Shown here: piece after piece, positions 13,529-64,000 of the stretch
How positions within the stretch are numbered: the first letter of the stretch is position 1
How the letters are laid out: each line of letters starts with the position of its first letter
Assembly: GCA_034620365.1 (NCBI GenBank)
Contig: JAQGEQ010000180.1
Location: forward strand, 62,001 to 126,000
Reading direction: 5' to 3'
Length of the DNA stretch: 64,000 nt
DNA from: Pegea sp. RAD2-039
Taxonomy: Eukaryota; Chordata; Thaliacea; Salpida; Salpidae
The notes under the pieces: generated by a model
Database searches by the model: none
What the model saw: only the letters and a program-made list of their open reading frames with translations
Told to the model about the DNA's origin: nothing
Translations under genes and position numbers: made by a program

Positions 13529-13554
13529 GTTTACAAATTTGATACAAGTTAATA

Positions 13555-26368: not shown

Positions 26369-27730
26369 ATGAATAAATATTATGAATGTGTGAAAGTTTT
26401 AGACGTTGGAGGAAAAACGTCTTTCATTTTGCAAGGCAGTCTATTTGATTACATTTTTACAAACCCGGCAGGAAATGAGCTTATAGAACTTCACTCTAAG
26501 CACCAAAATAAAGAGATTTCTGTTGATGGATTTGATTGTTTTTCTGATTCACTTGTGAAAGATAATATTTTGTCAGCAGGATTCGTTTACTGGATTTACA
26601 AAGAAAGTGGATCAGTAAAACTTTACAAATTGAAAGATTTTAATTTCAAAAATACCTCATGTGATTTTAATATGCTTAGAATATTCTTCCATATTGGAAC
26701 CAAGTTTTCTTTGAAAAAGGACAAATCTGTAGAAAGCCATTTTGTTGCTTTAGAATTATTAAAACATTGTTTGTTGATTGCTGAAAAATTCAAACCAACT
26801 AAAACCATAATAAAATACAATTTATCCGCGTTTTCATTTTTTATAGTACAGATATTGGATGTATTCGGCAATATGTACGAAACTAAACTCTGCAAACAAA
26901 CCACTAAACTTAATGATTTGATCACCAGATTGTCTTTGCTATCTGGTAGAACTAACAATGTGAAGCTATCAACAAATATAAACAATCAGAGGGTTAAAGA
27001 ATCAACAAACACCAATAATCACAAGTTTCGAGAATATTTATCGTTTTTGGATGTTTTTCATTACTCACTTGTGAGCTCGTGTACTGTTGTGTTTCCTAAT
27101 GAAACTGCTGGATTAAAGTATAACCGACATTTAATGAGAGTTATTGCATTTGTAAGCTCCTGCGATGTGATGTTTTTCATTCAATCTTCAATAGCAGGAC
27201 AGTACCATGTTTTTGGACAAACAATTGCTTCATCTAAACTACAAACAGATTTAAAAGGAGTTAACCAAAACTTCCTTAAAATCTTGTTTATTGAGTCATT
27301 TGTAGCTGTTCTGTTTAGTTTCAATTGGTTGATATTGTTAGCTTGCCACATAAAGTTTTCAAAAATAAGGGAGAAACCTATATGCCTCCGAGCTGGTCTG
27401 TACGTATGTCCAGAATTTTATACAAGTTTTAATTTTTCTGATCAGCTAAAGATTATTGAAAAAGATGTTTCTGAGAAATTGGACTTTTTTATGAGTAAAA
27501 AAACAAAAAAAGCAAAAAAGAAAGGTAAAAAAAAGTTTGCTAAAAATAAAAAAGATAAAAATGATGAAATGTTTGCTGAAAGATATGAGAAGATGTCGGT
27601 CAGATTAATTAAGATAAGTATAATTTGTGAAGAGCTTTTAGACTGTCAAAAGATGAAATCTATTTTGGATAAAGCCACAGTAATATTCATAAATTTGTGT
27701 TCTTCCTTGCACAATAGTTTTGCAAGTTAA
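26369..27730 (+). CDS. Amplified family member 2 (453 aa), unknown function
   Basis: Intact, intronless 453-codon frame. The other copies start at MNNFEMNKY; here the first ATG is ATT, so translation should begin at the second Met. Conserved landmarks are FILQGSLFDYIF (about residues 16-27), GFVYWIYKESG (about 70-80), VALELLKHCLLIAEKF, a hydrophobic stretch SAFSFFIVQILDVF, LITRLSLLSGRTN, FVSSCDVMFFIQSSIAG, and a hydrophobic VAVLFSFNWLILLAC. The end is Lys-rich (KKAKKKGKKKFAKNKKDK) followed by a helical tail. There is no signal peptide, and I recognise no domain. An 11-residue in-frame insertion (KESTNTNNHKF) near residue 205 combines the versions of members 7 and 3, indicating unequal exchange. 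Open frames on the opposite strand are shadows. Confidence 0.85.
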   Translation: MNKYYECVKVLDVGGKTSFILQGSLFDYIFTNPAGNELIELHSKHQNKEISVDGFDCFSDSLVKDNILSAGFVYWIYKESGSVKLYKLKDFNFKNTSCDFNMLRIFFHIGTKFSLKKDKSVESHFVALELLKHCLLIAEKFKPTKTIIKYNLSAFSFFIVQILDVFGNMYETKLCKQTTKLNDLITRLSLLSGRTNNVKLSTNINNQRVKESTNTNNHKFREYLSFLDVFHYSLVSSCTVVFPNETAGLKYNRHLMRVIAFVSSCDVMFFIQSSIAGQYHVFGQTIASSKLQTDLKGVNQNFLKILFIESFVAVLFSFNWLILLACHIKFSKIREKPICLRAGLYVCPEFYTSFNFSDQLKIIEKDVSEKLDFFMSKKTKKAKKKGKKKFAKNKKDKNDEMFAERYEKMSVRLIKISIICEELLDCQKMKSILDKATVIFINLCSSLHNSFAS

Positions 27731-32499: not shown

Positions 32500-33177
32500 T
32501 TGCTTCTAGCGGTAAGTAAAATGCAATTATTCAAAAAGCTGAAGAAAGCTTTTACAACTTCAAAGAAATTATTTCTATCTTTGTGCCAAAATATAAGCAT
32601 AGTTATAAGGCTTTATGTAATATCAGTAAAATATCGATTTATATAAACAGAAAAAAGCAAAGAAATCACTTTATAGGATTTTACAAAATTATTAATAATA
32701 AAACTTTCATTTTATCAGTTCTTAAATTGAAAATATAATATTGAAATGATTACAGATTGAACGAAATGATTGAATAAGTAACAAGTCTGTTTTCATGACA
32801 TTTATTTCAGTTGATTTGGTTTACATCTGCAAGACTATAAATATATGAACAACCAAAGATGAAAGCATATGTGTTGAAGACTCTTCTTACATGAAAGCTT
32901 ATGTTATTTACTTTATCGTTTGTTTTCTAGTTTTGTGTTATATATTTTTGATTATTTGATGTGAATTCATAAGTTTGATTTAGAATTTATTTAACAAAGA
33001 TACTACTTCTTAACTCAATATAAATATTATTGCCTGCTATAGGATGTAAGTTAAGATATCTTCCCATACATTTAAAATTACTAAATGTACTGAGTGATGC
33101 TACCTTTGTCTAATAAATCATTTAACTACAGCCTTAGTTTTAGCAGCTCCTGATTTTGTAGATTAATCAGCAAGAAA

Positions 33178-34500
33178 ATGAACAATTTTGAAATGAATAA
33201 ATATTCTGAATGTGTGAAAGTTTTAAATGTTGAAGGAAAAACGTCTTTCATATTGCAAGGTAGTCTATTTGATTACATTTTTAAAAGCCCGGCGGGAAAT
33301 GAGCTTATACAACTTCACTCTAAGTACCAAGATAAAGATATTTCTGTTGATGGATTTGATTGTTTTTCAGATTTACCTGTGAAAGATAATATTTTGTCAG
33401 CAGGATTTGTTTATTGGATTTACAAAGAAAGTGGATTAGTTAAACTTTACAAATTAAAAGATTTTAAAGCTCACGATATCTCATATGATCGTATTATACT
33501 TGCAATATTTTTTCAAATTGGAACCAAGTTTTCTTTGCAAAAGGACAAATCTGTAGAAAGCCATTTTGTTGCTTTAGAATTATTAAAACATTGTCTGTTG
33601 ATTGCTGAAAAATTTATACCAACTAAAATCATAATGAGATACAAAGCTTCTGCGTTTTTATTTTTTATAGTACAGATCTTGGATGTATTCAGCAATAAGT
33701 GCGAAACTAAACTCTGCAAACAAACCAAAATACTTAATGATTTGATAAACAGATTGTCTTTGCTATCTGGTAGAACTAAACAAATTAAATTATCAACAAC
33801 CACCAATAATCACAAGTTTCAAGAATATTTATCATTTTTGGATGTCTTTCATTCCTCACTTGTGGATTCAGGTGATAATCTGTTTGATTACGATACTATT
33901 GGTTTCGAGTATTACCGAAAAATATTGAGAATACAAGCATTTGTAAGCTTATGCGATTTAATGTTTTTTATTCAATCTTCAATGGCAGGGCAGTTGTATG
34001 TTTCTGAGCAAACATACGCCTCATATAGCTTACCAGTAAATTTACTAACAGTAACAGAAAATCCAAACTTGGTTACAGCGTTTTTAAACAATTCACTTGC
34101 AGCTGTTTTGTTTAGTTTTAATTTATTGATATCGTTAGCTTCCCGTATGAAGTTTTTAAAAATAAAAGAGCAGTCTATATGCCTCCAAACTGATCTGTAC
34201 CTGTGTCAAGAAGTTTATAAAAGTTTCAATTTTTCTAGCCTACTAAGCGAAATTAAATTTGAATTTTCAAAGAGACGGAAATATGTTTTGATTGACATGA
34301 AAAACATAGAAGACAACGAAGCCAGAATGAATGAATATAATCAAGCAAAACTGAAGAACAAAGATATAATGGAAGATTTACTCCGTATAAAACAAGTTTT
34401 TGAAGCTGCTTCAGAATCTCAAAAGATGATATTTATTTTGACTACAGCCTCAGAAATACTCAAAAAGATGTGTTCTCTTTTTGAAAATAGTTATGCCTAA
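33178..34500 (+). CDS. Amplified family member 3 (440 aa), unknown function
   Basis: Intact intronless frame starting MNNFEMNKYSECVKVLNVEG. It keeps all family landmarks: GSLFDYIFKSPAGNELIQLH, VALELLKHCLLIAEKF, LINRLSLLSGRTK, YLSFLDVFHSSLVDSG and FVSLCDLMFFIQSSMAGQLY. The C-terminal third differs from member 2: instead of the poly-Lys stretch it has NEARMNEYNQAKLKNKDIM and an acidic/helical end finishing ENSYA. The conserved promoter region with TATA at 32640 lies upstream. That five copies stay open over more than 400 codons while their sequences differ at many sites suggests selection on the protein. Confidence 0.85.
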   Translation: MNNFEMNKYSECVKVLNVEGKTSFILQGSLFDYIFKSPAGNELIQLHSKYQDKDISVDGFDCFSDLPVKDNILSAGFVYWIYKESGLVKLYKLKDFKAHDISYDRIILAIFFQIGTKFSLQKDKSVESHFVALELLKHCLLIAEKFIPTKIIMRYKASAFLFFIVQILDVFSNKCETKLCKQTKILNDLINRLSLLSGRTKQIKLSTTTNNHKFQEYLSFLDVFHSSLVDSGDNLFDYDTIGFEYYRKILRIQAFVSLCDLMFFIQSSMAGQLYVSEQTYASYSLPVNLLTVTENPNLVTAFLNNSLAAVLFSFNLLISLASRMKFLKIKEQSICLQTDLYLCQEVYKSFNFSSLLSEIKFEFSKRRKYVLIDMKNIEDNEARMNEYNQAKLKNKDIMEDLLRIKQVFEAASESQKMIFILTTASEILKKMCSLFENSYA

Positions 34501-36480: not shown

Positions 36481-37152
36481 TCTTCTTGCAGAAAGTAACA
36501 AGACGAATTCACTAGAGCTGTTGTGAGCTTTTATAACTTGCAAGGAATTATTTTTAGCTTGGTGCCAAATCATAAGCATATCCATAAGGTTTTCTGTAAT
36601 TTATGTAAAATATCAATTTATATAAACAGAAAAAGCAGAGAGATCACCTGGAAAGATTTTACAAAATTGTTAACAATAAAAGTTTCTTTTACACTTTGAA
36701 CCGATTACAGTTTGATTACAGTTTGAACCAACTGAATAAATAGGTAATAAAACTGTTTTCAATGATTTTAATTTCGGTTGATTTGCTTTACATTTGCAAG
36801 CACTCTTACATAAGAACAACTCAAAGATGAAGGCAGATGTGTTAAAGACCTTTCTTATATGGAAAATTTTATGTTTTTCTTAAATGTTTGTTTGCTAGTT
36901 TTGTAGTGAATATGTAGTAATTATTTGTTGTGATTTCATATTTTTGATTTAGAATTTAAGTTAATGAAGATACTACTACTTCTTAGCTGAACTTAAATCT
37001 TAATTTCTGTTATGAGTTGTAAGTTAAGATATATTCTAAAACATTTTTAATTTAATAATTGTACTATGTGATAAAACCTTTTATCTAATGAAACATTTAA
37101 CTGTAGCCTTATTTTTAGCAATTCCTGATTTTGTAGATTAGTCAGCAGGAAA

Positions 37153-37641
37153 ATGAACAAATTTGAAATGAATAAATATTCTGATTGTGTGAAAGTTTTA
37201 GACGTTGTAGGAAAAACGTCTTTTATTCTGCAAGGTAGACTATTTGATTGCATTTTTACGAGACCGGCTGGAAATGAGCTCTTTGAACTTCACTCTAAGT
37301 ACCAAGATAAAGATTTTGATGGATTTGAATGTTTTTCTGATTTACTTGTGAAAGATAATATTTTGTCAGCAGGATTTGTTTACCGGATTTACAAAGAAAG
37401 TGGATTAGTGAAACTTTACAAATTGAAAGATTTTAAAGCCTACGATAACTCATGTGATCTTACTATACTTAGAATATTCTATCAAATTGGAACGAAATTT
37501 TCTTTGAAAAAGAACAAATCTGTAAAAAGCCCTTTTTCTGCCTTAGAATTATTTAAACATTTTCTGCTGATTGATAAACATTTAAAGCCTACTAAAACAA
37601 TACTGAAATACAAATTATCCGCATTCTCATTTTTTATAGTA
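37153..37641 (+). pseudogene. Amplified family member 4, truncated
   Basis: Begins with a normal promoter region and MNKFEMNKYSDCVKVLDVVG and stays open to residue about 163 (SAFSFFIV). There similarity to the family ends abruptly at about 37641, inside the word tatagta, and unrelated sequence begins. The frame then runs eight codons (SSSIYLKV) to a stop at 37668. The lost part is the C-terminal 60 percent. The joined DNA is the end of a Gln-rich frame on the opposite strand, so the truncation is a rearrangement and not a simple nonsense mutation. The start of member 4 could still give a short protein. Confidence 0.85.
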
Positions 37642-38067
37642 TCTAGTAGCATCTACTTGAAAGTATAAATATTTTGAACCATGTTGAGTTACTTGTTCAT
37701 CCTGTGTTTGGGTCACTGGCTGTTCATACATCTGTGCTTCAAGTATAGATTGTCCATCGGAAAAACACTCTTGGTTCACTGGCATTTCAATGAAGCTATG
37801 GTTTTACTGAAGATTATTTTGATTTAGTAGTTGCTGAGTTACAACAGTTTTTTCAGGTTGCATGTTTTGTTGAAAGGTTTGGCTTGATGTTGCGCAGTAG
37901 ACCTACTAATATCTTCCATAAAACGTGGTTGCTGCTGTTGAAATCCATCATCATCATCAATAGGTTGCATCTTTATTGTAGATTGTTGTTGGTACGGCAT
38001 ACTTTGCATTTGAGTATTATGTCGAACAGAACACGGTTTCAGAATTGGATCAACCACACATGATGTT
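37642..38067 (-). pseudogene. Gln-rich exon fragment
   Basis: On the minus strand an acceptor (CAATTTTGTAG) ending at 38068 is followed by TSCVVDPILKPCSVRH, a Gln-rich stretch (QSMPYQQQSTIKMQPIDDDD), then after a frame change NMQPEKTVVTQQLLNQNN, a TAG/TAA-type stop, and in the same frame MPVNQECFSDGQSILEAQ and VTQTQDEQVTQHGSKY. It looks like a low-complexity coding exon now broken by one frameshift and one stop, ending at the junction with family member 4. I do not recognise it. Confidence 0.45.
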
Positions 38068-40444: not shown

Positions 40445-41701
40445 TTAGGCAGTGCTATTTTCAAGTAATGAATACATATTTTTAAATATTTTTGTAGTTG
40501 TAGTCAAAATAGAGTATACCTTTGGACGGTTTGAAACAGCTCCAAAAATTAGTTCTATTTGAAGTAAATCATGCAGTTTAGGTTTGTTGTATTCTTTATT
40601 TTTCATATTACTAAACAAATAATCTATTTTCTGTGAAAATTCAGAATTCGTCTTGCTTAGCTGATAAGAAAAATTGAAACTTGTATAAACTTCTTGACGC
40701 AGGTAAAGATCAGCTTGTAGGCATATAGAATACTCTCTTTTTTGAGAAAACTTCATATGACAAGCTAACGATATCAACAAATCAAAACATAACAAAACAC
40801 CTACAAGTGAATTGCTTAAAACATCTTTAGCGAACCTTGGATATTGTTTGGCTCTTTGTAAATTTGTTTGTAGGCTATATAAGGCAAATCTTTGCCCAAA
40901 AACATACAACCGTCCTGCCATCGAAGATTGAATAAAGAACATCAAATCGCATAAGCTTACAAATGTATTTACTTCCATTACTTCTTGGTAATACTTAAAA
41001 CAAAAAGTATCTTCACTAAACAGAATGGTACAAGACTCCCCAAGTGAGCAACAAACGACATCTAAGAATGATATATATTCTTGAAACTTGAGATTATTTA
41101 TATTTGTTAATAGTTTAACGTTGTTAGTTCTACTATGTAGCAAAGAAAATTTGATGATCAAATCATTAAGTTTTTTGATTTGTTTGACTTTAGTTCCGTA
41201 CATATTGCCGAATACATCCAAGATCTGTACTAGAAAAAATGAGAACGCGGATAACTTGTATTTCATTATGGTTTTAGTTGGTCTGAATTTTTCAGCAATC
41301 AACAGACAATGCTTTAATAATTCTAAAGCAACAAAATGGCTTTCTACAAATTTGTTTCTTTTCAAAGAAAACATGGTTCCAATATGAAAAAATATTCTAA
41401 GTATAGACAAATCATATGAGATACTGTTGACTCTAAAATCTTTCAATTTGTAAGCTTTTACTAATCCAAATGTATCGTATTTCCAGTAAACAAATCCTGA
41501 TGACGCAATACCATTTCTCACTAGGAACTCAGGAAAACAACTAATATGATCATGAGAAAATAGAAGTTTTGTAAGCTCTTTTCCTGCCGGTCTTGTAAAA
41601 ATGTATTCAAATAGACTACCTTGCAATATGAAAAACCTCTTTCCTTCAGCCTCCACAACTTCTACAAATTCATAATATTTATTCATTTCAAAATTGTTCA
41701 T
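40445..41701 (-). CDS. Amplified family member 5 (418 aa), unknown function
   Basis: The only minus-strand copy; intact and intronless, starting MNNFEMNKYYEFVEVVEAEG. It is the shortest member because the segment after AGKEL is deleted in frame (LTKLLFSHDHISCFPEF replaces the longer HSKYQDKDISVDGFDC version). Other landmarks are kept: GFVYWKYDTFGLVKAYKLKD, SHFVALELLKHCLLIAEKF, LIIKFSLLHSRTN, EYISFLDVVCCSL and FVSLCDLMFFIQSSMAGRLY. The C-terminus lacks the Lys-rich insert and ends LLENSTA. The promoter region is present but diverged, with a weaker TATA near 42240. The open frame at 41088-41387 on the plus strand is a shadow of this gene. Confidence 0.85.
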   Translation of the reverse strand: MNNFEMNKYYEFVEVVEAEGKRFFILQGSLFEYIFTRPAGKELTKLLFSHDHISCFPEFLVRNGIASSGFVYWKYDTFGLVKAYKLKDFRVNSISYDLSILRIFFHIGTMFSLKRNKFVESHFVALELLKHCLLIAEKFRPTKTIMKYKLSAFSFFLVQILDVFGNMYGTKVKQIKKLNDLIIKFSLLHSRTNNVKLLTNINNLKFQEYISFLDVVCCSLGESCTILFSEDTFCFKYYQEVMEVNTFVSLCDLMFFIQSSMAGRLYVFGQRFALYSLQTNLQRAKQYPRFAKDVLSNSLVGVLLCFDLLISLACHMKFSQKREYSICLQADLYLRQEVYTSFNFSYQLSKTNSEFSQKIDYLFSNMKNKEYNKPKLHDLLQIELIFGAVSNRPKVYSILTTTTKIFKNMYSLLENSTA

Positions 41702-43890
41702 TCTCTTGATGATTATTCTACAAAATCAGGAGCTTCTAAAAATAAGACTAAAGTTAAATATTTTATTAGATAATGGTAGCATCATATAGTACATTTACTA
41801 ATTTCAAAATGTTCTGAGAATATATTCTAACTTACAACAGAAATTAAGATTTAAATTCAGTAAGGAAATATTAGTACCTTCAATAACATAAATTCTAAAT
41901 CAAAGCTATGAAATCATAACAAATAATTACAACATATTCACTACAAAACTAGAAAACAAACATTAAAGTCAAAAATACAACTTTCCAAAAACAAGAAATC
42001 TTCAACACATCAAAGTTCATCTTTGAGTTGTTCTTATATATGAGTGCTTGCAAATGTAAAGCAAATCAATTGAAATAACAATCATTGAAAACATTTTTGT
42101 TAACTATTTAATCATTTAGTTCAAACTGTGATTATTTCCATAGTATATTTTCAATTTACCAACTTAAAAAAAGAAAGTTTTATTATTAACAATTTTGTAA
42201 AATCTTTGTAATTGATTTCTCTACTTTTTTGTTTTGTATAAATCGATATTTTACTGATATTACATAAAGCCTTATGGCTATCCTGATAACTTGGCACAAA
42301 GCTAAAATAATATATTGATAGTTATTATGATTTTTTTTCAGCTTTTGTGGTTTTGTCTTGTTACTTTCCGAAGCAATAAACAAAAGTTATACTTGATTAT
42401 AAAATACAAAGCTTGGAGATTACAAACGTCTTTCCTTTTCATAGCTTAGTGATGTTTATTTCGAAGATGGAGAAACCCTTTCAATGACTCTTTTATGTAT
42501 TTTACTTCTTAAAATAAATGTAGTTTCAATTCAGTTTGCTATCACTAAAAACAAAGCTTCTTCATACTAATAACAAAAAAAAAATAATAATGATAGCTAA
42601 TGTTTCTTCATTAGTTTTTTGAAAGTTTTCTGAAGGTAAAATGGAAAACCGGGCAGAGAACTTACAGATTAAAACAACTTGGTTTAATTAATAAAAGTTA
42701 GAACTTAAGATTAATTTCGAAATCTTACCAAAATAATTCTTTAGTCTTGTTTTATTTCTAACTACTTCATAAAATTGATGTTTATGTTTTTATCATCAAT
42801 TAATCTTTAAGTAAAAGCTTGAAAACAAAAATTCTGTTCCTAAACTACTAGAGTTTAAATAGCAAATAAATCAATCCAAAACCAACCTTGCTTTAGACTA
42901 AAGATTATAAAAGTTTTTTTATTTATGTAAAATAATTGAATAAGTTTTCAAATGTAGCTTTCATTTGCTTAAGTAATTTAGAACTTGTAAAATCGTTAAG
43001 CTTTCATTAAAGCAGAAACAACTTTTGCTTTCTTGAAAAAGAAATAGGTAAATGAAAATGTACAAGTTCAGCTTATAAATTACTAGAATTATTATTATCA
43101 AAATCTGTTATTATCAGAACAATGTTTTTTATAACACCCAATCGAACATTTTTTTTTGGTTTTTCTTATTTTTATTCAAGGAAAACCTAATTTAGTTCCA
43201 CAAATTCATTTTTAACTAGGTGTTTATGATCACTCAGAATTGAAACTACTCATAATGATATCAAAAGTCAAATATCTCTGTTTGACGTCGAGCAAAAGTT
43301 ATGTATTAATGATGAATTAAAATTACACTAGCAACAAAACTCTAGGCTATTTAAGAATTTTAGTATTTTATGTTTAATTTAACCTTAAGATTTTTATAAC
43401 TGCTTACATAATTGCATATGATAAATCGTTTTTGTGAACTTTGAGTACAAACAATTTCATTTCATTAGAAAAAATTCTCTATAGCGCTATCAAACGAAAT
43501 CAGTTTTAAATATAAACTTTATGAAATTGATAATTCATACAAGTATATTTTTGAAACAAAGTTAAAAAAAGAAACATTTGAATTTTTACTATAGTTCAAC
43601 AAAAAAATCAAATTTTGTTTTGTGAATATATTTTAAATATCTTACAACTGTTAATAACTCTAATCAGATTTCAAGCTAAGATTGTAAATATTCTAATTAG
43701 AAAGCTATTATGCTATTGGGTGAGCACACAAGAAATATTTTCAGTCCTATCTGTTAGCTAGAGTTGGTCAAGCCATGTGACGTTACTGAAAAGCTTTTAT
43801 AAGATTTGTTACTAAGCTTATAATTTAGCTGGTCCATTAACACTGATCATAACAACTTTTACCTCTAACTTAATATTTTGGGTAGTCAAC
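41702..43890. repeat. 5' flank of member 5, inverted copy of 24020-26368
   Basis: Runs away from member 5 with the same order of words as upstream of member 2, but lacks the about 600-bp block found at 25078-25676. No gene is seen; the 65-codon frame at 42186-42383 lies in the conserved promoter block on the minus strand and has no counterpart in the other units. Confidence 0.65.
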
Positions 43891-45240: not shown

Positions 45241-45940
45241 AGAGCTTTATTTTTTGCTTCTTGCGGAAAGTAACAAGACATATTCACAAAAGCTGTTGTG
45301 AGCTTGTATAACTTGCGAAGAATTATCTTTTGCATTTTGCCAAATTATAAGAATACCTCTAAGGTTTTATGTAATATATGTAAAATGTCAATTTATATAA
45401 GCAGAAAAAGTAGAAATATCACTGTAAGATTTTACAAAATTTATAAATAATAAAACTTTCTTCTTTTCAGTTCTTAAATTGAAAATATAATACTAAAATG
45501 ATTACAGTATGAACCAACTGAATAAATAGGTAATAAAACTGTTTTCAATGACTGTTATTTCGGTTGATTTGCTTTACATTTGCAAGCACTCATATATGAG
45601 AACAACCCAAAGATGAGGGCAGATGTGTTGAAGATTTCTTTCTTATATGGAAATTTCTATTTTTTACTTAAATTTTTGATTTTAGTTTTGTACCGAAAAT
45701 CTTTTAATTATTTGATGTGATTTCATAATTTTGATTGAGAATTTGAGTTAATAAAGATACTACTAATTCTTAACTGAACTTAAATCTTAATTTCTGTTGT
45801 AAGTTGTAAGTTAGGATATAATCGCTGAAAATTTTTCATTTAGTAAATGTCCTATGTGATGAAACCTTTTATCTAATGAAACATTTATCTACAGACTTAT
45901 TTTTAGCAGCTCCTGATTTTGTAGATTAATCAGCAAGATA

Positions 45941-47230
45941 ATGAACAATTTTGAAATGAATAAATATTCTGAATGTGTGAAAGTCCTAGACGCTGGAGGA
46001 AAGACGTGTTTCATTTTGCAAGGTAGTCTATTTGATTACATTTTTACAAGCTCGGCAGGAAATGATCTCTTAGAATTTCAATCTTTTTTTAAAAATGGAT
46101 TTGATTGTGATCCTGATTTGCTTGTGAAAAACGATATTTTGTCACCAGGATTCGTTTACTGGATTTACAAAAAAAGTGGATTAATGATAATATACAAATT
46201 GAAAGATTTCAAAGCCAACGATGTCTCATGTGATTTTACTATGCTTAGAATATTCTATCGAATTGGAACGAAATTTTCTTTGAAAAAGAACAAATCTGTA
46301 GAAAGCCATTTTGTTGTCTTAGAATTATTAAAACATTGTCTATTGATAGCTGAAAAATTAGAGCCAACTAAAACCATACTGAAATACAAAGCATCTACGT
46401 TTTTATTTTTTCTAGTGCAGATATTGGATGGATTTGGCAATATAACCGCAACTAATATCTACAAACAAACCAAGAAACTTAATGATTTGATCACCAGATT
46501 GTCTTTGCTATCTGGTAGAACTAACAATGTGAAGCTATCAACAAATACAAATTTTCACAACTTAAAACGATATTTATTATTTTTAGATGGCTTTTGTTGT
46601 GCACTTATGCAATCATGTAACAATCTGTTGTCTAATGATTCTGCTTATCTCAAGTATTATCGAGAAATAATGAGAGAGCTTGCTTTTGTAAGCTTATGCG
46701 ATTTGAGGTTATTCATTCAACCTTCGATAGAAAGACATATGTATGTTTTCGGACAAACATTTTCATCAAACAGCCTAGAAGAAAATTTACTAAAAGATAA
46801 ACAAAATCCAAAATTTTTTGAAATTTATTTTAACAATTTAATTGTACCTGTTTTGTTTATTTTTAACTTGTTGACGTCATTAGCTTGTTGTGTAAAGTTT
46901 TCAAAGATAAGAAAAGAATCTGTTTGCCTCAAAACTGATCTGTTCCAGTTTGAAGAAGCTTATAAAAGTTCCAATTTTTCTGATCAGTTAAACAATATTA
47001 AATCTGACGTATCAGAGAAAATGAAAGATTCTATGATTAACATAAGAAATAAAGAAACCAACAAAGATAAAATGCTTGCTAGTAATTATCAGCACCTATA
47101 TGAAAGCCTGTTGGACGAATTACTTGATATAAAACTAATTTGTGAAGATGTGTCAGGCTGTCAAAAGATGAAATCTATTTTGAATACAGCCGCAGAAGTA
47201 ATTAAAAAGTTGTTTTCTTGGTTTAAATAG
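45941..47230 (+). CDS. Amplified family member 6 (429 aa), unknown function
   Basis: Intact intronless frame starting MNNFEMNKYSECVKVLDAGG, with a conserved promoter (TATA at 45394) and leader. It is among the most diverged copies: the block after AGNDLLEF is shortened (QSFFKNGFDCDPDLLVKND), YLLFLDGFCCALMQSC replaces the usual YLSFLDVFHSSL, and FVSLCDLRLFIQPSIERHMY replaces the FFIQSSIAG version. The family core LITRLSLLSGRTNNVKLSTN is unchanged. The C-terminus has a helical DELLDIKLICEDVSGCQKMK stretch and ends KLFSWFK with a TAG. Opposite-strand frames are shadows. Confidence 0.85.
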   Translation: MNNFEMNKYSECVKVLDAGGKTCFILQGSLFDYIFTSSAGNDLLEFQSFFKNGFDCDPDLLVKNDILSPGFVYWIYKKSGLMIIYKLKDFKANDVSCDFTMLRIFYRIGTKFSLKKNKSVESHFVVLELLKHCLLIAEKLEPTKTILKYKASTFLFFLVQILDGFGNITATNIYKQTKKLNDLITRLSLLSGRTNNVKLSTNTNFHNLKRYLLFLDGFCCALMQSCNNLLSNDSAYLKYYREIMRELAFVSLCDLRLFIQPSIERHMYVFGQTFSSNSLEENLLKDKQNPKFFEIYFNNLIVPVLFIFNLLTSLACCVKFSKIRKESVCLKTDLFQFEEAYKSSNFSDQLNNIKSDVSEKMKDSMINIRNKETNKDKMLASNYQHLYESLLDELLDIKLICEDVSGCQKMKSILNTAAEVIKKLFSWFK

Positions 47231-51784: not shown

Positions 51785-51955
51785 TGATGTGTAAAATTGT
51801 ACATTTGAATAAAATAAATTTGTACATTTGAATAAAATAAATTTGTGCATTTGAATAAAATAAAATTGTACATTTGAATAAAATAAAAATTGTACATTTA
51901 AATAAAAGAAACTTGTACATTTGAATAAAATAAAATTTTACATTTGGTATTTGAA
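51785..51955. repeat. About 21-bp AT minisatellite, copy 2
   Basis: Units of the type aaatttgtacatttgaataa, the reverse complement of the array at 19270-19551 but with about half the number of units. It lies at the same position relative to the SMC6 hinge as copy 1, so the array and the gene fragment were copied together. Confidence 0.9.
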
Positions 51956-52188
51956 TAAGGTAAGTGTCTATCAGGAGTAACCTCCTATTTTTGTCAATCA
52001 AACAAAAAATTATACGCGACAGAATTTTTTGATAGCTTTGAATGCGCATCTACAGCTGGTGGAATTACAGAGAAACATCTGTTTGTGAAAGTTCAGGGGT
52101 ATGTTCATTAAATTCATCCAATAGAAGCAGATGCTGCTCATACTACCGAATAAAAAAGTGACTTAGTAATGGAATGAATGAGGGTTAG

Positions 52189-52351: not shown

Positions 52352-53473
52352 GTGAGTTTCCCAAACACCTTATTAGTAATTTATTGTTACTGTTGCTGGT
52401 AATATTAGTCAATCTATGAATACTTCCCTGATCAAACCATCACTGTGTTTTGCTGCAGTGACCTTTTTGACGAGCAAACCTTTCTTTTAGTTTTTGTACA
52501 TACAACTACTTCAGCGTCGCTTCTGTTTTTACATAAATCTGACAGCACTAAAAGTACACATTGTGGGTTGCGCGCTTAACAGGGTAGATTGAAAATTCCT
52601 TTTACTTTTACCTTAGTTTTGTTTAATTTTATTTATTCAACCAAGTGGTTGTAATCTGTAAGTTTGCTGCCAGGAATTTCAACTTTATATTCAGATAGTT
52701 TCACAAAACTAATGCTGCAATAGTAGCTATTTACTTAAAAATAAAACGTCTACAATTAGATCTAAAACTTACTACCATAACTCATAAACATCGTCTAGCG
52801 GAAAGTAAAAAAACATATATTCAAAAAGCTGAGGAAAACTTTTACAATTTCAAAGAAATTATTTTTAGCTTTTTGCCAAAATATAACTATGCTCATAAGG
52901 CTTTATGTAATATCAGTAAAATATCGATTTATATAAACAGAAAAAGCAAAGAAATCACTTTATAGGATTTTACAAAATTATTAATAATAAAACTGTCTCT
53001 TTATCAGTTATTAAATTGAAAAAATATTATTGAAATGACTACAGTTTGAACAAGCTGATTGAATAAGTAACAAGTCTGTTTTCATGATTTTTATTTCGAT
53101 TGATTTGGTTTACATCTGCAAGACTATAAATATATGAACAACCCAAAGATGAAAGCATATGTGTTGAAGACTCTTATTATATTGAAAGTTCTATTTTTTA
53201 CTTTATCGTTTGTTTGCCATTTTTGTACTGAACATGTTTTAGTTATTTGATGTAACTTTATAATTTCTATTTATTATTTAAGTTAACAAAGATATTACTA
53301 CTTCTTAACTGAACCTAAATCTTAATGCCTGGTGTAAGTTGTAAAGTAGAACATTCTCAGAACATTTTGTGATTAGTAAATGTACTATGTGATGATACTT
53401 TTTATCTAATAAATAATTTAACTACAGACTTATTTTTAGCAGTTCCTGATTTTGTAGATTAACCAGCAAGAAA
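52352..53473. other. Inter-unit DNA and promoter block of member 7
   Basis: No gene is seen in 52352-52620. From about 52620 (tttattcaacca) to 52795 it follows the 5' region of member 2, then joins the promoter block at the word catcgtct with the about 600-bp block missing. TATA-like tatataaa at 52930; leader acceptor ending at 53439. Confidence 0.6.
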
Positions 53474-54817
53474 ATGAACAATTTTGAAATGAATAAATAT
53501 TCTGAATGTGTGAAAGTTCTAGACGTTGGAGGAAAAACATCTTTCATATTGCAAGGTAGTCTATTTGATTACATTTTTACAAGCCCGGCAGGAAATGAGC
53601 TTATAGAACTTCACTCTAAGTACCAAGATAAAGATATTTCTGTTGATGGATTTGATTGTTTTTCTGATTTACTTGTGAAAGAAAATATTTTGTCCGCAGG
53701 ATTCGTTTACTGGACATACAAAGAAAGTGGATTAGTGAAACTTTACAAATTAAAAGATTTTAAAGTCAGCAGTAACTCATGTGTTTTTAATATACTTAGA
53801 ATATTCTTTCAAATTGGAACAAAGTTTTCTTTCAAACAGGACAAATCTGTAGAAAGCCATTTTGTTGCTTTAGAATTATTGAAACATTGTCTGTTGGTTG
53901 CTGAAAAATTCAAACCAACTAAAACCGTAATGAAATACAAATTATCTGCGTTCTCATTTTTTATAGTGCAGATCTTGGATTTATTCAGCAATACGTACGG
54001 AACTAAACTCTGCAAACAAACCAAAAAACTTAATGATTTGAAAAACAGATTGTCTTTGCTATCTGGTAGATCTAACAATGTGAAGCTATCAACAAATATA
54101 AATAATCAGAGGGTTAAAGAATTTTTGTCGTTTTTGGATGTCTTTTCTTTCTCACTGACGCAATCATGTACCACTCTGTTTTGTGAAGAACTTACTATAT
54201 TAAATTATAACCGATATTTAATGAGAGTTCTTGCATTTGTAAGCTCCTGCGATGTGATGTTTTTCATTCAATATTCAATAGCAGGACAGTACCATGTTTT
54301 TGGGCAAACAATTGCTTCAAATAGCGTACGAAAATGTTTAAAAGGAATTAAGGAAAATTTCTTTAAAACTTTTTTTATTGATTCAATTGTAGTTGTTTTG
54401 TTCAGTTTTAATTGGTTGATATCATTAGCTTGCCTTATGAAGTTTTCAAAGATAAGAAAATATTCTAACCGCCTCCAAGCTGGTTGGTACTTGTGTCAAG
54501 AGTTTTATAGAACTTTTAATTATATTACTCTGCTAAAAATTATTCAAAGAGATGTTTCAGAGAAAAGGGAATTTTTTATGAGTAAAATAAAAAATAAAGA
54601 AAAAAGGAAAGCTAAAAAAATGTTTGCTAAAAATCAAGAAAACGACAAGGGTGAAAAGTTTATTTGTAGATTTAAGAGCCTATTGGCCGAATTATTTTAT
54701 ATAAATAAAAATTGTAAAGACCGTATAGACTGTAGAAAGATGAAATCTATTTTAAAAACAGCCACAACAATATTCATAAAGTTGTTTTCCTCTTTTCAAA
54801 ATAGTTATGCAAGTTAA
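53474..54817 (+). CDS. Amplified family member 7 (447 aa), unknown function
   Basis: Intact intronless frame starting MNNFEMNKYSECVKVLDVGG. It is closest to member 2: both share KLSTNINNQRVKE, FVSSCDVMFFIQ and a C-terminal Lys-rich insert (here KIKNKEKRKAKKMFAKNQEN), and both end NSYAS or NSFAS. It lacks the second half of member 2's internal duplication. Hydrophobic stretches at SAFSFFIVQILDLF and VVVLFSFNWLISLAC could be buried helices or membrane segments; without a signal peptide I lean to an intracellular helical protein. The 3' flank resembles that of member 2 over several hundred bases. Confidence 0.85.
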   Translation: MNNFEMNKYSECVKVLDVGGKTSFILQGSLFDYIFTSPAGNELIELHSKYQDKDISVDGFDCFSDLLVKENILSAGFVYWTYKESGLVKLYKLKDFKVSSNSCVFNILRIFFQIGTKFSFKQDKSVESHFVALELLKHCLLVAEKFKPTKTVMKYKLSAFSFFIVQILDLFSNTYGTKLCKQTKKLNDLKNRLSLLSGRSNNVKLSTNINNQRVKEFLSFLDVFSFSLTQSCTTLFCEELTILNYNRYLMRVLAFVSSCDVMFFIQYSIAGQYHVFGQTIASNSVRKCLKGIKENFFKTFFIDSIVVVLFSFNWLISLACLMKFSKIRKYSNRLQAGWYLCQEFYRTFNYITLLKIIQRDVSEKREFFMSKIKNKEKRKAKKMFAKNQENDKGEKFICRFKSLLAELFYINKNCKDRIDCRKMKSILKTATTIFIKLFSSFQNSYAS

Positions 54818-56748: not shown

Positions 56749-56820
56749 TCCTCGTTAGTATAGTGGTGAGTATCCCCGCCTGTCACGCGGGAGACCGGGG
56801 TTCGATTCCCCGACGGGGAG
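56749..56820 (+). tRNA. tRNA-Asp (GTC)
   Basis: A 72-nt tRNA with a full cloverleaf: the acceptor stem TCCTCGT pairs with ACGGGGA (one G-T pair), the discriminator is G, the D arm is GTATAGTGGTGAGTAT, the anticodon loop is CTGTCAC with anticodon GTC, and the T arm is GGGGTTCGATTCCCC. A box and B box are intact and there is no intron. A T-rich stretch right after the gene (ttcttttt) serves as the pol III terminator. The sequence is of the usual animal type, and the GC content contrasts sharply with the surroundings. Confidence 0.97.
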
Positions 56821-57632: not shown

Positions 57633-60600
57633 CTACAGCTTCTGAAAATGAAAAATAAAATAAATAAACAAAAGTTTTTTTTTCAATTAAAATTAAATGA
57701 TAAAAGCAAATAGATTATAGAATGTTTTTTATATTGCTAAATTATATCACAAAGTAAATTTTTCAAATTAATAAGAAATGAAATAATTAAATCAAATAAA
57801 AGATAAACTTTCAGTTTACATTTTCTTACGCATCCACAAGTAAAAACTCGAATCAAAAGATTTCTAAATCTCTTCTTCTTCTGCAAATTTTTTTTAAATT
57901 TAATATTTTACTTAATTCATTTTATAGAATTAAAGATTCTTATTTTAATAAAATAAAATTCAGAGAAATTAAAATTTGTTAAACAGAAATTAATTGCTTC
58001 AATATTATTTAATTTATAGTTAGCATCAGGTATTCGTCTTAACTTACAGATAATTTTTTGATGGCATCTTTCTTCCTAGTTTCAACCTTGTTTTTCTGCA
58101 TTGAACAACTTAATTTTACAATTTAATTCAAGATAATGATTTTCACTATAAACACCAACTTATTAATAATAATTATAAACAATCATATATGTAACTGATA
58201 AACGAAACCATACTTACCGGTCTGCTTTCGACATTTATATTCTTAGGTTCTTTATCTGGGATATTTTGATCCTGAATAAAATAATTAAGGTTCAAATGAA
58301 GTTAAGTGCAAATATAATATTAATTCTATATTTAAGTTGTAGTTTAAAAAAGTTGTCTAAAGTAGTGACATTAATTTTATTAGTGAAATATTTTTACAGA
58401 AATATTGAACAAAATTATTATTTAAATCAGAAACAAACTTTTCAAATAAAACCATTATAATATCAACATTAAATCACAACTAACTGGTTTGCTTTCAACA
58501 TTTTGAATATTGTTATTATCATCTATACCATGTTTCTGAAAAAAATAAAATAATAATTAATCAGTTATAATTTTAATATAGTACAAACAGCAAATATACG
58601 GTAACAGAATTACAAACAAATAATTATTACGTTATGTTTTCTTTTATGTCAAAACTTTAAAGGAAAATGAAAATTAGCTTGATTAATTTAACAACAAACT
58701 GAAGCTAAATCAAAAAGTTTAAAATCAATAAATTATTTCTAAACTTTTAATTGAATGAAAAATTTAATATTCTATTGTATGATAATGACAATCTAGTAAG
58801 TTTTTGAAACGAAACTAAAATGGTTTTACTCTTTGTCTAAAAGCTATTAAACCAGTTTCTATAAGATTATCTTCTATATTATAAATAAATTTAATGAAAA
58901 ATTACATCAGTAACTTGTATTTATATCCTTAATAGCTAACTCTAAATTAGTTTTATTATTAAAATTTACAATAATCTTGGTTTTGGTCAAAAGAACAAAA
59001 AGAAATAATCAGTTTTCACTAACTGTATCCGGTTCTGAAATTATCGAAGTGACTTTGCTTCTCATTTTATCGTTTTCAATCTAAAATCATAAATAAATAT
59101 TTTCAGTAAGTTTTACTAAGGCAATTTTATATTTTAAATAAAAGAAATTAGGTTTAGGATCAAATTAGTACTTACCAAACCTGGATTCACCAAATTATTG
59201 CTGGTTTCTTCGCTATCGGTTTTCTAAAAAAGACAAGTTTATCTTTTATTATTTGAAAGTAACAAAAACAACTTATTTGATGTTTTCATGGAAACAACTA
59301 TTATCTAATTAAATTTATTTAACCTGAAATATAGTTATAACTAAAAAAAACCCTTTTTAAGAATTTATAAACAAAATGACTGATAATAAATTAATCACAG
59401 AAACTAACCAATGAGGAGATTGACCAGATGTCACTTTGACTTTTCTTGCTAGCATTTGATTCCTAAAGAAAATATTTATTAAAAACTATATGAAAATTAT
59501 TCAAATTTATTTTACTAATTTTCTGTAATAAGTTAGTTGTTTCAATAAAGTATTTTTATGTTTTATCATTTTTCAAGTTATAAGATTTAATTTTGTTTTT
59601 GTAAAGTAGTTAATTTGATTTTATTTAACATAATTCATGACTAAAAAAATGATTTTAAATTTATTAAAACAAAATTCAGAGGTAATAAGTTTTATTGAGA
59701 GCTAGAAATTAATTGCTTTACATTTTTATGTTCTATTTAACATCAGGTATTAGTGTTAACTTACACATATTTTTTTAGAGTTATTTTTCTTATAAATTAG
59801 CAAAAAGAAAAAAATATTTGATCGTTTCATGAAAACAACAATTATTTAATTAAATTTATATAACTTGAACCAAAGTTATGACTAGCAAAAACTATACATC
59901 AGAATTTATAAACAAAATGACTGATGATAAATTAATCACAGAAACTAACCAATGAGGAGATTGAACTCCTGTCACTTTGACTTTCCTTTTTAGCTTTTTG
60001 TTCCTAAAGAAAACATTTGTTAAAAACTATATGAAAATTGTTCAAATTTACTTTACTAATTTTCTGTAATAAGTTAATGGTTTGAATAAGGTATTTTCAA
60101 GTTTATCATTTTTCAAGTTATAAGATTTAATTTTGTCTATGTAAAATAATTAATTTACTTTATTTAACGTAATTCATGACTATAAAAAAGAATTTAAATT
60201 CATTAAAATGAAATTCAGAGATTTTAAAAGTTTATGGAGAGATAGAAAATAATTGTTTTAAATTTTTTACGTTATATTCAAAATCACGTATAAGTTTTTA
60301 CTTACAGCTCTTATTCTCAAAAAATTTCTCTTGAAAATCTCGAAAGCTGTTTCCTGCATTGAACAACTTAAATTTATAATTGAGAAGACTCATTTTTATA
60401 TAAACATTAACTTGTTATCAATAATTTCTCAAAAGTTACACATTTATATCTGATAAACAAAATCCAAATAACCAAACTTACCGGTTTGCTTTCAACATTT
60501 ATATTCTTAGGTTCTTCATATGGGATATTTTGATCCTGAAAAAAATGATTGAAATTTAAATAAAGTTGAGAGCAAAAATAATATTAATTTTATGTTGAAA

Positions 60601-63600
60601 ACGTAATTTTTAAACGATTTCTAAAGTAGTTATAACAAATTTATTACTTTAATTTTGTTCAGTAATTTTACAGAGAATTTATCTTTAAATCAAAAAAAAA
60701 ACCTGTGAAGTAAAACCATTGTAATATCAATATTAAATCACAACTAACTGGTTTGCTTTCAACATTTTGAATATTGCTATTATCACCTATGCTTTGTTCC
60801 TGAAAACAATGAAAGAAAAATTAATATGTTTTTATTTTAATATAGTACAAATATAAAAAAAAAAGCAACATAGGTACAAGCAATTAAATTTTAAATTATA
60901 TTCTATTTTATATCAAAACTGTTAATAAAAATGAAAATTAGTTTGATTAAATTAAAAATGAATTGAAGTTAAATCATAAATTTTTTATTTCTAAACTATT
61001 AATGAATTAAATATTAAATAATCTGTAGTATGATAATGACAATTTAGTAAGTTCTTGAAAAGAAGCTGTAATGGTTTACTCTTTGTCTGAAAGCAATCAA
61101 ATCAGCTTCTATAAGATTATCTTCTATATTATCAATAAACTTAATGAAAAATTAAATCAGTAACTTGTATTTAGATCTGTAATAATTATTTCAATAACTT
61201 GTTTAACATTAAAATTTACAATATTTTAGTTTTTAGATCAAAGAAACAAATAGAAATGGTAATTTTTCACTAACTGTATTAGGTTCTGAAATTATCGAAG
61301 TGACTTTGCTTTTCATTTCATTGTTTTCAATCTAAAATCATAAATAAATATTTTCAGTAAGTTTTAATAAGGCAAATTTATATTTAAAACAAAATAAATT
61401 AGGTTTACGATCAAATTAATACTTACCAAAACTGGATTCACCAAATTATTTTTGGTTTCTGAGCAATCGGTTTCCTAAAAAATACAATTTTATGTTTTAT
61501 CTTTTGAAAGTAGCAAAAAAGGTTTGATATCATTGTATAAAAACCAAGTATTTAATTCAGTTATCATAACTTGAAAAAAGTTCTTAAAAACAAAAAGTAT
61601 ATATAAGATTTAATAAACAAAATGGGTGATGATAAATTAATCACAGAAACTAACCCATGAGGAGATTGAAGAGATGTCACTGTCACATTCCTTGAGTAAC
61701 TCTAATAACTAAAGAAAATATGTATTGACAACCATTTTTAAACTACTCAAATATATTTTACTACTTTTTTGGAATAAGTTAGTGGTTTAATTAAAGTATT
61801 TTCAAGTTTTATCATTTATCAAAATAATAAATTACAATTTTGTTTTGTAAAATAATTAATTTGATTACAATCTTGTTGACTTTAAACTACAACCTTCAGT
61901 GTCAAATTTGTTTAGTAGCTTAAACATAACTTTAAAACTAATAGTTTAAACAATTTAAACTAATGCTAAAATCGGAAAACCACCTTAAATAAAAGACTGA
62001 CATTGAACCTTAATTTAAAGTAAGCAGAACTTTAAATATGTTTCTTGTTAACACATCATAGCTAGAAAGAAAACTGATTTTTTGTATAACTGTGATATAT
62101 TTTATTTGAGTTTTATATTTTGTGTCTCTGTATAATTGTTATAATTGTTTAGTCTTTGAAAAGCTCGAATAATTAGTATTTTATAAAATAAAAGCGAATG
62201 ATACTCAAATTATACAAATGCAAGTGAAGCAGCAAAAGAAGTTAAATTTGTTTCACAAACATTAATACAATCAATTTAACAAACGGATAAAGACTTTTAA
62301 ATTAGAATCACGGACAAACTGAATCTAGAAGAAACAAAAACTCACGCTGGAAGGTTTCAAATCATCACCACCATCTTCCAAATCAGTCAACTGAAAAATA
62401 TTTCCCAGTTTACATATTTTACTTCTACTTAAATTATTTTGTTTTAAAAGTATTGAAAGCTCAACAAATATTTGATTTTAAGCTGATTTAATTTCAATAT
62501 GACCATTATTGATTTAGCAAAGATGAATAATTAATCTTTTATATAGTTAAAAAAATAAACAAATAGTTTTATAATGTACATATTTTATATCAACGGTTAA
62601 AATTTACCATTTCGTTTTCTTCTTCAATAACTTCAACAACTGATGAGGTTACCTATAAGAAATAGAGTTAAACAAAAACTTTAATAACTTATTCAGTCAA
62701 CTGTTATCATTTATTAATTTGCATTAAGTATGAATAAGGATGAATCAAATACTTTCTGATAAAATACTGAAATTATATTTGCCAATCAGTCTTAAAACTA
62801 CTACAAAAGACAAGCAAGTGCTATCAATAAGGAAAATGTTTATTTAACTCACTGTATTGAAGTCTATAGCATTTTCAACAATATCCCCAACAACAACTTT
62901 GTTAACAGCTGAAAATATTTTTAATTTTGTATTAAGACTTAAAATTCTACAATTTAATTGAAAACATAAACAAAAATATGACCATAAAGTAACAAGTTTC
63001 AGAAAAATCAGATTAAATTTATTATTTTTAGAACAAACATTTTGTCTGTTACACTTACTTAGGTGCTTCATGTATTCCAACTAAAAATAAAATCATAAGT
63101 TATTTTTACTTATTAACAGAATCTTTAAATTAAAAAAGAAATTCTGCAAGGGTTTATTGAATCAAATATAATTAAATAAGCTTGAAAAAGTAAATACTTG
63201 ATATATTATTAGGTGTTTTTAACATAATAATTGAAATAAATCATTTTACCAACAAACATTTCCACTGTTGCAGGTTAAAAACATTTTGTTGAATTGTACC
63301 TAAAATTTTTTATATGTTAATATATGAGGTTACAATCAATTAATTAATTCTCTAACCTTTAAATTTCGTTTGTTCAAAATTACCTTTAAATAAAAATGTA
63401 GTTTTAAAAACTTATTATCAGTTGCATTAAGACATTTAAGTTAAAATCTAATCATTTAAAACAAAAGTAAACTTACCAAACAATGATATTTCAAACAATA
63501 CTAATTTTGGCTGAAATATAAAAAATTAGTTAATTTAAACAAAGCAAGCTTGTTATACACTATAAAATAGTTATTTAAAAGTGGTATTAATAAAGTTAAC

Positions 63601-63817
63601 AAGTTTATTGAGTTACCAGTTGAAAAAAGATTTCGTTTAAATGTAGGTGATTCACTTCATATAAGTGAACTTCCATAGTATGATCTGAAATCATAAGAAT
63701 AACATTTACTCATGAACTACAAAGTGTTAATGTTATTTGTATAACTTTATTACAAGGTTTAAAAAGAAAATGTTAGATTGAAAAATACTTACTAAGGAAG
63801 TCTAGTTGCTTATCCAT
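57633..63817 (-). CDS. Micro-exon gene with a tandemly repeated six-exon cassette
   Basis: Minus strand, about 20 tiny GT-AG exons. The start exon is 63817-63793 (MDKQLDFL), then 63684-63617, 63080-63059, 62908-62853, 62652-62608 (VTSSVVEVIEEENEM) and 62390-62346 (LTDLEDGGDDLKPSS). Cassette 1: A 61708-61655, B 61474-61427, C 61331-61275, D 60799-60749, E 60535-60482, F 60353-60306. Remnant: A 60003-59950 and a 24-nt F-like 59788-59765. Cassette 3: A 59462-59409, B 59223-59176, C 59080-59024, D 58535-58485, E 58271-58218, F 58095-58048. The last exon at 57641 gives KL and TAG at 57633. Corresponding exons have identical lengths (54, 48, 57, 51, 54, 48 nt), all phase 0. The product, about 320 aa, is Ser/Asn/Glu-rich and probably disordered, without a signal peptide. 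Two further candidate exons (63510-63477, 63264-63250) break the phase if both are used, so the 5' part is uncertain. Function unknown; the architecture recalls flatworm micro-exon genes. Confidence 0.75.
58048..61708 (-). repeat. Tandem exon-cassette duplication (about 2.26 kb period)
   Basis: Introns as well as exons are duplicated: cassette 1 (61708-60306) and cassette 3 (59462-58048) align throughout at an offset of about 2.25-2.26 kb, with many substitutions in introns and fewer in exons. The middle remnant keeps only A and F; its flanks match the flanks of those exons in the other cassettes, so B-E were deleted from a third copy. Confidence 0.8.
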
Positions 63818-64000
63818 CTCGAAAAATAAATAATTCTATCTGATGAAAAGATATTTTTAAATAGCAAGACAAAAAAATTAATGTTAACAACTACTTTTTA
63901 ATTATAAACTTTTAAAATTAACTTAGTTAGCGATGAAAGCTATTAATTATATCCTTGTATTGTCGCATATTTTAAAATAACAACAAACTAAAACTGCTCA
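63818..64000. promoter_or_regulatory. Presumed 5' flank of the micro-exon gene
   Basis: AT-rich DNA upstream (on the minus strand) of the first coding exon; it runs off the window. The promoter or a further leader exon may lie here or beyond. No clear TATA setting can be singled out. Confidence 0.3.

Follow-up and report, generated by a model that had tools for sequence, protein, structure and literature searches.

A gene of small exons at the end of the window

The stretch of DNA analyzed here (hereafter, the window) comprises 64,000 nucleotides of contig JAQGEQ010000180.1 from Pegea sp. RAD2-039, and near its far end the minus strand carries a gene assembled from 24 small exons. Joining these exons, from 63817 to 57633, produces a single open frame of 1110 nt that encodes 369 amino acids, and AG and GT are present at all of the internal exon borders of the model. 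The region of this micro-exon gene contains no open reading frame (ORF) of at least 150 amino acids, nor does any lie between 54.8 and 64 kb, and single-ORF calling would therefore miss the gene; on the splice sites and on this point the initial annotation of the DNA was right.

The first seven exons are mostly asymmetric. Exon 1 (63793..63817, 25 nt) begins with the ATG and encodes MDKQLDFL; it is followed by exon 2 (63617..63684, 68 nt), exon 3 (63477..63510, 34 nt), exon 4 (63357..63383, 27 nt), exon 5 (63250..63299, 50 nt, NVFNLQQWKCLL), exon 6 (63059..63080, 22 nt), and exon 7 (62853..62908, 56 nt), which closes a conserved N-terminal domain (residues 1-94). The lengths of exons 1-3 and 5-7 cannot be divided by three; that of exon 4 can, yet this exon lies in phase 1. 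An acceptor-like AG (63840..63841, minus strand, context cttttcatcag) is found 22 nt 5' of the ATG and is present in all 16 copies of the gene that were compared; it is a possible acceptor for a trans-spliced leader or for an intron in the 5' untranslated region.

The remaining exons, 8-24 (17 of 24), all start in phase 0 and have lengths that are multiples of three. Exons 8 (62608..62652) and 9 (62346..62390) are symmetric and 45 nt each, and they precede a series of modules, A (54 nt), B (48 nt), C (57 nt), D (51 nt), E (54 nt), and F or F-like (48 nt), arranged in two ordered rounds with one extra A. The first round consists of exons 10 (A, 61655..61708), 11 (B, 61427..61474), 12 (C, 61275..61331), 13 (D, 60749..60799), 14 (E, 60482..60535), and 15 (F-like, 60306..60353, ETAFEIFKRNFLRIRA). 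After exon 16 (A, 59950..60003), exon 17 (A, 59409..59462) opens the second block, which continues with exons 18 (B, 59176..59223), 19 (C, 59024..59080), 20 (D, 58485..58535), 21 (E, 58218..58271), and 22 (F, 58048..58095). Exon 23 (module G, 57830..57880, 51 nt) encodes the basic amphipathic C-terminus KKKRFRNLLIRVFTCGC, and exon 24 (module H, 57633..57641), which is uncertain, contributes 9 coding nt including the TAG. The joined frame supports all 24 exons and the other gene copies support exons 1-23; templates taken from the related protein P0001 (see below) further support exons 2, 3, 5, 7, 11-14, and 16-23, and the repeat analysis supports exons 10 and 17. If the last intron is left unspliced, the frame continues below 57829 into VRKCKLKVYLLFDLII...; the VRKCKLK that follows exon 23 in this read-through is identical in 20 of 20 copies, and in most of them a hydrophobic stretch comes next.

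The initial annotation gave the exon sizes as 24-57 nt and held that any subset of exons could be skipped in frame. The symmetric exons 8-23 in fact measure 45-57 nt, with exon 24 at its 9 coding nt, and the second statement applies to exons 8-23 and not to exons 1-7, six of which are not multiples of three while exon 4 is in phase 1. Repeat spacings of ~2250 bp and ~540 bp are found in the gene region, and the A-F exon block (58048..61708, minus strand) is tandemly duplicated in the ~2250-bp register. Since the repeats coincide with the exon list, we conclude that the array expanded through tandem copying of a symmetric-exon block.

The encoded protein has a disorder-like composition and an isoelectric point (pI) of 5.16. 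Exons 1-7 encode the conserved N-terminal stretch of about 94 amino acids; residues 1-94 align gap-free with P0001 and have a grand average of hydropathy (GRAVY) of 0.00, and the N-terminus is not hydrophobic by inspection. The linker that follows, encoded by exons 8-22, is acidic and low in hydrophobicity; it repeats modules of 15-19 residues, each the product of a single symmetric exon. Over residues 95-334 the protein is polar as well as acidic (net charge -21, pI 4.46). Exon 23 supplies a basic tail: the last 35 amino acids carry a net charge of +12, and the top hydrophobic moment of any 11-mer falls at KRFRNLLIRVF, directly before CGC. The acidic, disorder-like, and undescribed protein of the initial annotation is thus recognizable here, as is its missing signal peptide, none being obvious by eye. 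No Pfam or NCBIfam family matched over the cut-off, PDB held no match for the N-terminal domain or the whole protein, and P0001 likewise had no NCBIfam match; the family matches below the cut-off are weak (Pfam MRP-S32, E 0.086; XH, 0.066; PHROGs, 0.017). A PC4/p15-like fold, considered for the N-terminal domain from its sequence, found no support, as Pfam PC4 was matched neither by the window protein at E up to 10 nor by five alignment members at E up to 1.

Copies of the gene in the genome

How widely is the gene represented in this genome? A 568-bp probe from its 3' end was compared with the 105.7 Mb of the genome (387 contigs), and the counts are lower bounds: at least 57 matching stretches lie at about 40 places, several of which hold two stretches, and at least 19 matches span the full probe, 16 of them, the window included, at 88% identity or more. 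A further search with part of the N-terminal domain at E up to 10 gave exon-7-type matches at 19 places and exon-5-type matches at two further loci on contig C26, although several of these matches are weak.

Twenty regions, the window (L009) among them, were fetched and compared exon by exon. In the 19 non-window copies, where 3 exons were left unmapped, the acceptor is AG in 468 of 482 cases and the donor is GT in 473 of 478, and 375 of 389 exons of the symmetric class have lengths that are multiples of three. The 14 non-AG acceptors and the 14 odd lengths belong to one and the same exon, the F exon of the middle block, in which AA replaces AG. The AA is found in L010-L020 and L022-L024, a natural exon loss that preserves the frame; eleven of these copies were read in the correct frame, and all 11 remain open when the F exon is omitted. 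The five donor exceptions are GC at exon 1 and GA at exon 8 in both L025 and L026, and GC at exon 8 in L012. With GA for a donor, exon 8 is probably skipped in L025 and L026, the two distant copies. Frames that seem broken trace to a 1-nt deletion in exon 3 (L012) or to an exon that is cut off or unmapped (L022, L024, L027, and L028); a protein-level exon scan finds exons 1-8 present in L027 and L028, and in L030, of the C102 group, it finds two F modules only.

The number of blocks differs among the 20 fetched regions. Sixteen contain three blocks, the window and L021 contain two, and L027 and L028 contain one. Gain and loss of whole blocks means that the length of the linker varies among copies while the frame stays open.

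To what extent is the coding sequence constrained? The main test used 12 full copies, with expectations taken from intron rates; L017, L022, L023, and L024, which are truncated or cut, and the more distant L025-L028 were left out. Singletons per site number 0.0648 in exons versus 0.0841 in introns, and in every one of the 66 pairwise comparisons the exons have diverged less than the introns. Nonsynonymous singletons in exons number 60 (88.6 expected), synonymous ones 29 (28.4 expected), and nonsense ones 0 (7.9 expected). Of 49 deletion runs, 2 reach into exons, and the one in exon 3 of L012 shifts the frame. With L025 and L026 included, the 14 copies show 2 "stop" variants where 29.0 would be expected. 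A 16-copy version gave 10 "stop" singletons, with L017, L022, L023, and L024 misaligned at their truncated or cut 5' ends. Among the copies, then, the frame and the splice sites are kept, and the amino acids are weakly kept.

Many of the copies stand in inverted pairs. Of the 19 full-length matches, 12 belong to six such pairs, and within a pair the 3' ends are separated by 4.5-5.4 kb. A palindrome on the window's own contig, outside the window (C272:42998-59757), holds two copies of the micro-exon gene, and the identity of its arms is 95.1% across 6.8 kb and 92.8% across another 1.9 kb; the other inverted probe pairs are on C70 (two), C90, C159, and C165. The tree of copies is nearly star-like, and the members of a pair are each other's nearest relatives in C70c/d and C26a/b and are not in C272 and C90. 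The inverted pairs, the burst-like tree, and a second multi-copy gene that adjoins this one (see below) could all be expected if a mobile or self-amplifying element carried the gene or included it. However, homology extends into the flanks of the fetched regions, as in segmental duplications, and the interval from 54.8 to 64 kb offers no ORF of at least 150 amino acids, no search having been aimed at transposon proteins or terminal repeats. We consider a mobile element to be an improbable explanation.

Intronless relatives and the origin of the exon symmetry

The joined protein was compared with 5.77 billion proteins, and a profile search scored the 8000 candidates sharing the most words with it. 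Each search returned only P0001 and P0002, two JGI proteins that are 40% and 38% identical to the query over 99% of its length. P0001 has 369 amino acids and occupies a 1230-base contig, P0002 has 350 amino acids and occupies a 1173-base contig, and both are intronless. By hand, P0001 can be parsed without remainder into exons 1-7, the modules B C B C D E A B C D A B D E F G, and a final VRK, and its module lengths match the genomic exons, except that one C module has 16 residues and one F module has 14. The two proteins are homologues of the window gene product, with which they share the N-terminal domain, the modules, and the basic tail; they differ from it in module order and in ending with VRK rather than KL.

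The exons can also be recovered from P0001. Its modules alone, which cover 17 of the 24 exons, were used as templates and placed between AG and GT. On the minus strand of the window they recover 16 of 17 exons at the predicted borders, exon 10 being missed; elsewhere in the 64 kb they match nowhere on the minus strand and once, weakly, on the plus strand, and in 20 randomized 6.5-kb sequences they match nowhere. This recovery, the joined frame, the conservation among copies, and the 0 nonsense singletons versus 7.9 expected uphold the claim of the initial annotation that this is a real micro-exon gene with phase-0 exons. The same recovery, the frames and splice sites conserved across copies, and the lack of nonsense singletons make it very improbable that we are looking at a chance pattern or the remains of a pseudogene, even though one of the 12 full copies (L012) carries the frameshifting deletion and L017 and L022 have no 5' exons despite the further sequence fetched.

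What is the origin of the exon symmetry? The initial annotation took it to be a design for exon skipping. A simpler possible cause exists, since only symmetric exons can be block-duplicated in frame and the block was in fact duplicated; what survives of the proposal is that skipping is suggested by a single pair of records, P0001 and P0002. P0002 is shorter than P0001 by a single C module of 19 residues; the remaining differences between the two, three in number, fall in the D and E modules directly after it. This would fit a splicing choice of another duplicated D-E pair, although two gene copies, two alleles, or a chimeric assembly would fit equally well.

It is accordingly necessary to weigh two views of how the exons are used. 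Elastin-like and other repeat proteins grew by exon duplication, and it may be that here, too, every exon is always included, that the symmetry stems only from in-frame duplication, and that diversity resides between copies and not among isoforms. The block duplication is evident, block number varies among copies, and nearly all of the splice sites in the fetched copies are intact, as constitutive splicing would have it. That P0002 is short of exactly one C module is an objection, but a weak one because P0001 and P0002 may be two gene copies, and we put constitutive splicing at slightly less than even odds. The second view is that splicing itself generates the variants, as in the micro-exon genes of schistosomes, each copy giving rise to many isoforms through the skipping of symmetric exons. 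Each of exons 8-23 is skippable in frame, P0001 and P0002 differ by a whole module with the other three differences confined to the following two modules (35 residues), and the loss of the F exon acceptor in 14 of 19 copies leaves the 11 correctly framed ones open without that exon. Nevertheless, there is one such pair of records, which paralogues, alleles, or a chimeric assembly explain equally well, and a splicing-driven generator of variants is in our judgment possible but rather doubtful.

We propose, with a probability of roughly two in three, that the gene belongs to a multi-copy tunicate micro-exon family that combines a conserved N-terminal domain with a variable acidic linker and a basic tail, P0001 and P0002 being the only relatives found. 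Blocks of exons in this family were tandemly duplicated and were gained or lost as wholes, and the phase-0 borders would be what makes these gains and losses safe. The linker would serve as a length-adjustable tether joining the N-terminal domain to the tail, the tail, a basic amphipathic segment with CGC, may bind membrane or nucleic acid, and some of the choice among modules may also be made during splicing. The setting of linker length by exon number is evident between gene copies and is only suggested within one copy.

Several points weigh against the proposed family and its working. The gene model was read only from genomic DNA and protein records. P0001 and P0002 are taken for complementary DNA (cDNA) because they are short and lack introns; a retrocopy would look alike, although it would itself also derive from spliced RNA. 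The last exon is the weak point of the model: the stop of exon 24 is missing in 2 of 12 copies and P0001 ends in VRK, as if exon 23 were read through, so that read-through of exon 23 is the alternative to the uncertain exon 24 for the 3' end. Pairwise dN/dS (nonsynonymous to synonymous divergence) relative to the window copy ranges from 0.60 to 1.39, and values near 1 imply that amino-acid constraint is weak and speak against a simple claim of protein-level selection. Across all variants, synonymous changes, too, fall short of expectation (42 versus 60.7), and therefore part of the exon conservation may reflect splicing signals or gene conversion. Finally, the roles of the tether and the tail are drawn from composition alone.

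Tunicate setting and comparison with known systems

The genome is tunicate, as judged by the grouping of its Arp1 protein and by its Ciona-type spliced leader genes, and the flatworm setting invoked by the initial annotation does not apply. Among the best 120 matches to Arp1, the named full-length proteins closest by identity are those of Phallusia (81%), Clavelina (80%), and Ciona (77%), and longer actin-like proteins of other animals, at 51-56% identity, also have high E-value ranks. In a tree of 29 hand-chosen rows, the protein groups with Clavelina, Phallusia, Ciona, and one Ciona-like row (100/100). The 16-nt Ciona spliced leader, as given in PMC7986045, occurs in 272 exact copies in the genome, and its reversed control occurs in 0. 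An array of spliced-leader RNA genes (C4:1135044-1142217; L043 is C4:1135020-1135480) has the leader at at least 33 places in a tandem unit of ~199 bp. In the units of this array the leader is followed by GTAAGT; in the dispersed copy L040 it is not, and hence not all of the 272 copies are leader genes. A rotifer origin, to which the low GC and the size of the genome had pointed (nine monogonont assemblies have 24.95-31.14% GC, PMC11954553), gave way to the tunicate result: the bdelloid spliced leader has 0 matches in the genome, monogononts being reported to have none (PMC1925144), and a Brachionus manjavacas guide sequence likewise has 0. A search for COX1 found nothing.

The gene has a multi-copy neighbor. 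A single ORF of 455 amino acids (53450..54817, plus strand), convergent on the micro-exon gene, belongs to a second multi-copy family, whose ORFs, most of them about 430-460 amino acids long, read 'MNNFEMNKYSECVKVLD...FILQGSLFDYIF'. By eye, six ORFs in the window are alike (26342-27730, 33154-34500, 37129-37668, 40445-41725 on the minus strand, 45917-47230, and 53450-54817). The genome contains 56 matching stretches, 40 of them long; full or partial copies adjoin the micro-exon gene on C35, C253, C87, C70, C165, and C159, one copy on C87 is reported as 100% identical to 53450-54814, and the second-family proteins that were tested match no Pfam or NCBIfam family over the cut-off. A tRNA gene (56749-56820) separates the convergent ORF from the micro-exon gene. 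Elsewhere in the window are a PROPPIN/WIPI-like beta-propeller ORF (13543-14658; PF21032, E 3e-11, over the cut-off) and a short tandem array with a 23-24-bp unit (51788-51969).

How does the gene compare with the micro-exon genes (MEGs) of flatworms? The operational rule for such genes in PMC7653826 asks for at least 7 exons, of which at least half are shorter than 70 nt and divisible by three, and for a run of at least 4 exons of this kind. By this rule the window gene is a micro-exon gene: 18 of its 24 exons qualify (exon 4 and exons 8-24), with a run of 17 in which exon 24 is counted by its 9 coding nt only. It shares with schistosome and tapeworm MEGs (PMC7653826, PMC8293314) the runs of short, divisible-by-three exons that can be skipped in frame, the multiple copies, and the fast evolution. 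However, schistosome MEGs are described in PMC8293314 as consisting mainly of symmetric exons of ≤36 bp, whereas the symmetric exons 8-23 measure 45-57 nt. PMC10526429 describes the schistosome products as secreted; in the window protein no signal peptide is seen by eye. Unlike flatworm MEGs, the gene comes from another phylum, has no sequence relation to them that we found, and combines a conserved N-terminal stretch of asymmetric exons with a repeated six-exon block. The exon design is of the same kind, but with a tunicate genome and a profile search that, for all its 5.77 billion proteins and 8000 scored candidates, returned P0001 and P0002 only, we give almost no credence to membership in the flatworm families. 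Among the papers listed on micro-exon genes in rotifers, tunicates, or ascidians and on MEGs generally, no tunicate micro-exon gene family turned up; one of these listings, 15 out of 1660 papers, includes a study of small Agrin exons in Ciona and is a weak test.

Most likely, the gene represents a convergent, lineage-restricted micro-exon family that is a variant of a known architecture. A stronger version is that an independent micro-exon family arose in a chordate lineage, with at least 16 close copies and distant ones besides, set in duplicated regions, in which the combinatorial inclusion of duplicated phase-0 exons yields many linker lengths per copy and a repertoire of variants, driven by splicing and by copy number, outside parasitism; this version we hold to be unlikely. 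If micro-exon genes are not a peculiarity of flatworms, then the usual account of them, variation where host and parasite meet, is incomplete, and the architecture could arise wherever a disordered linker can absorb changes in length, by the duplication of symmetric exons in tandem. The many recent copies with differing block numbers, together with the distant relatives, allow the growth of the array and the loss of exons to be observed, and such genes are seen here to escape ORF-based annotation.

Finally, elastin and the PEVK region of titin exemplify genes for repetitive linkers that grew by tandem duplication of symmetric exons. The window gene is unlike them in having 16 copies that are at least 88% identical over the probe, with differing numbers of blocks, and no known protein relatives. 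Like them, it displays phase-compatible exons that have been duplicated in blocks and that encode a repetitive, disorder-like linker.

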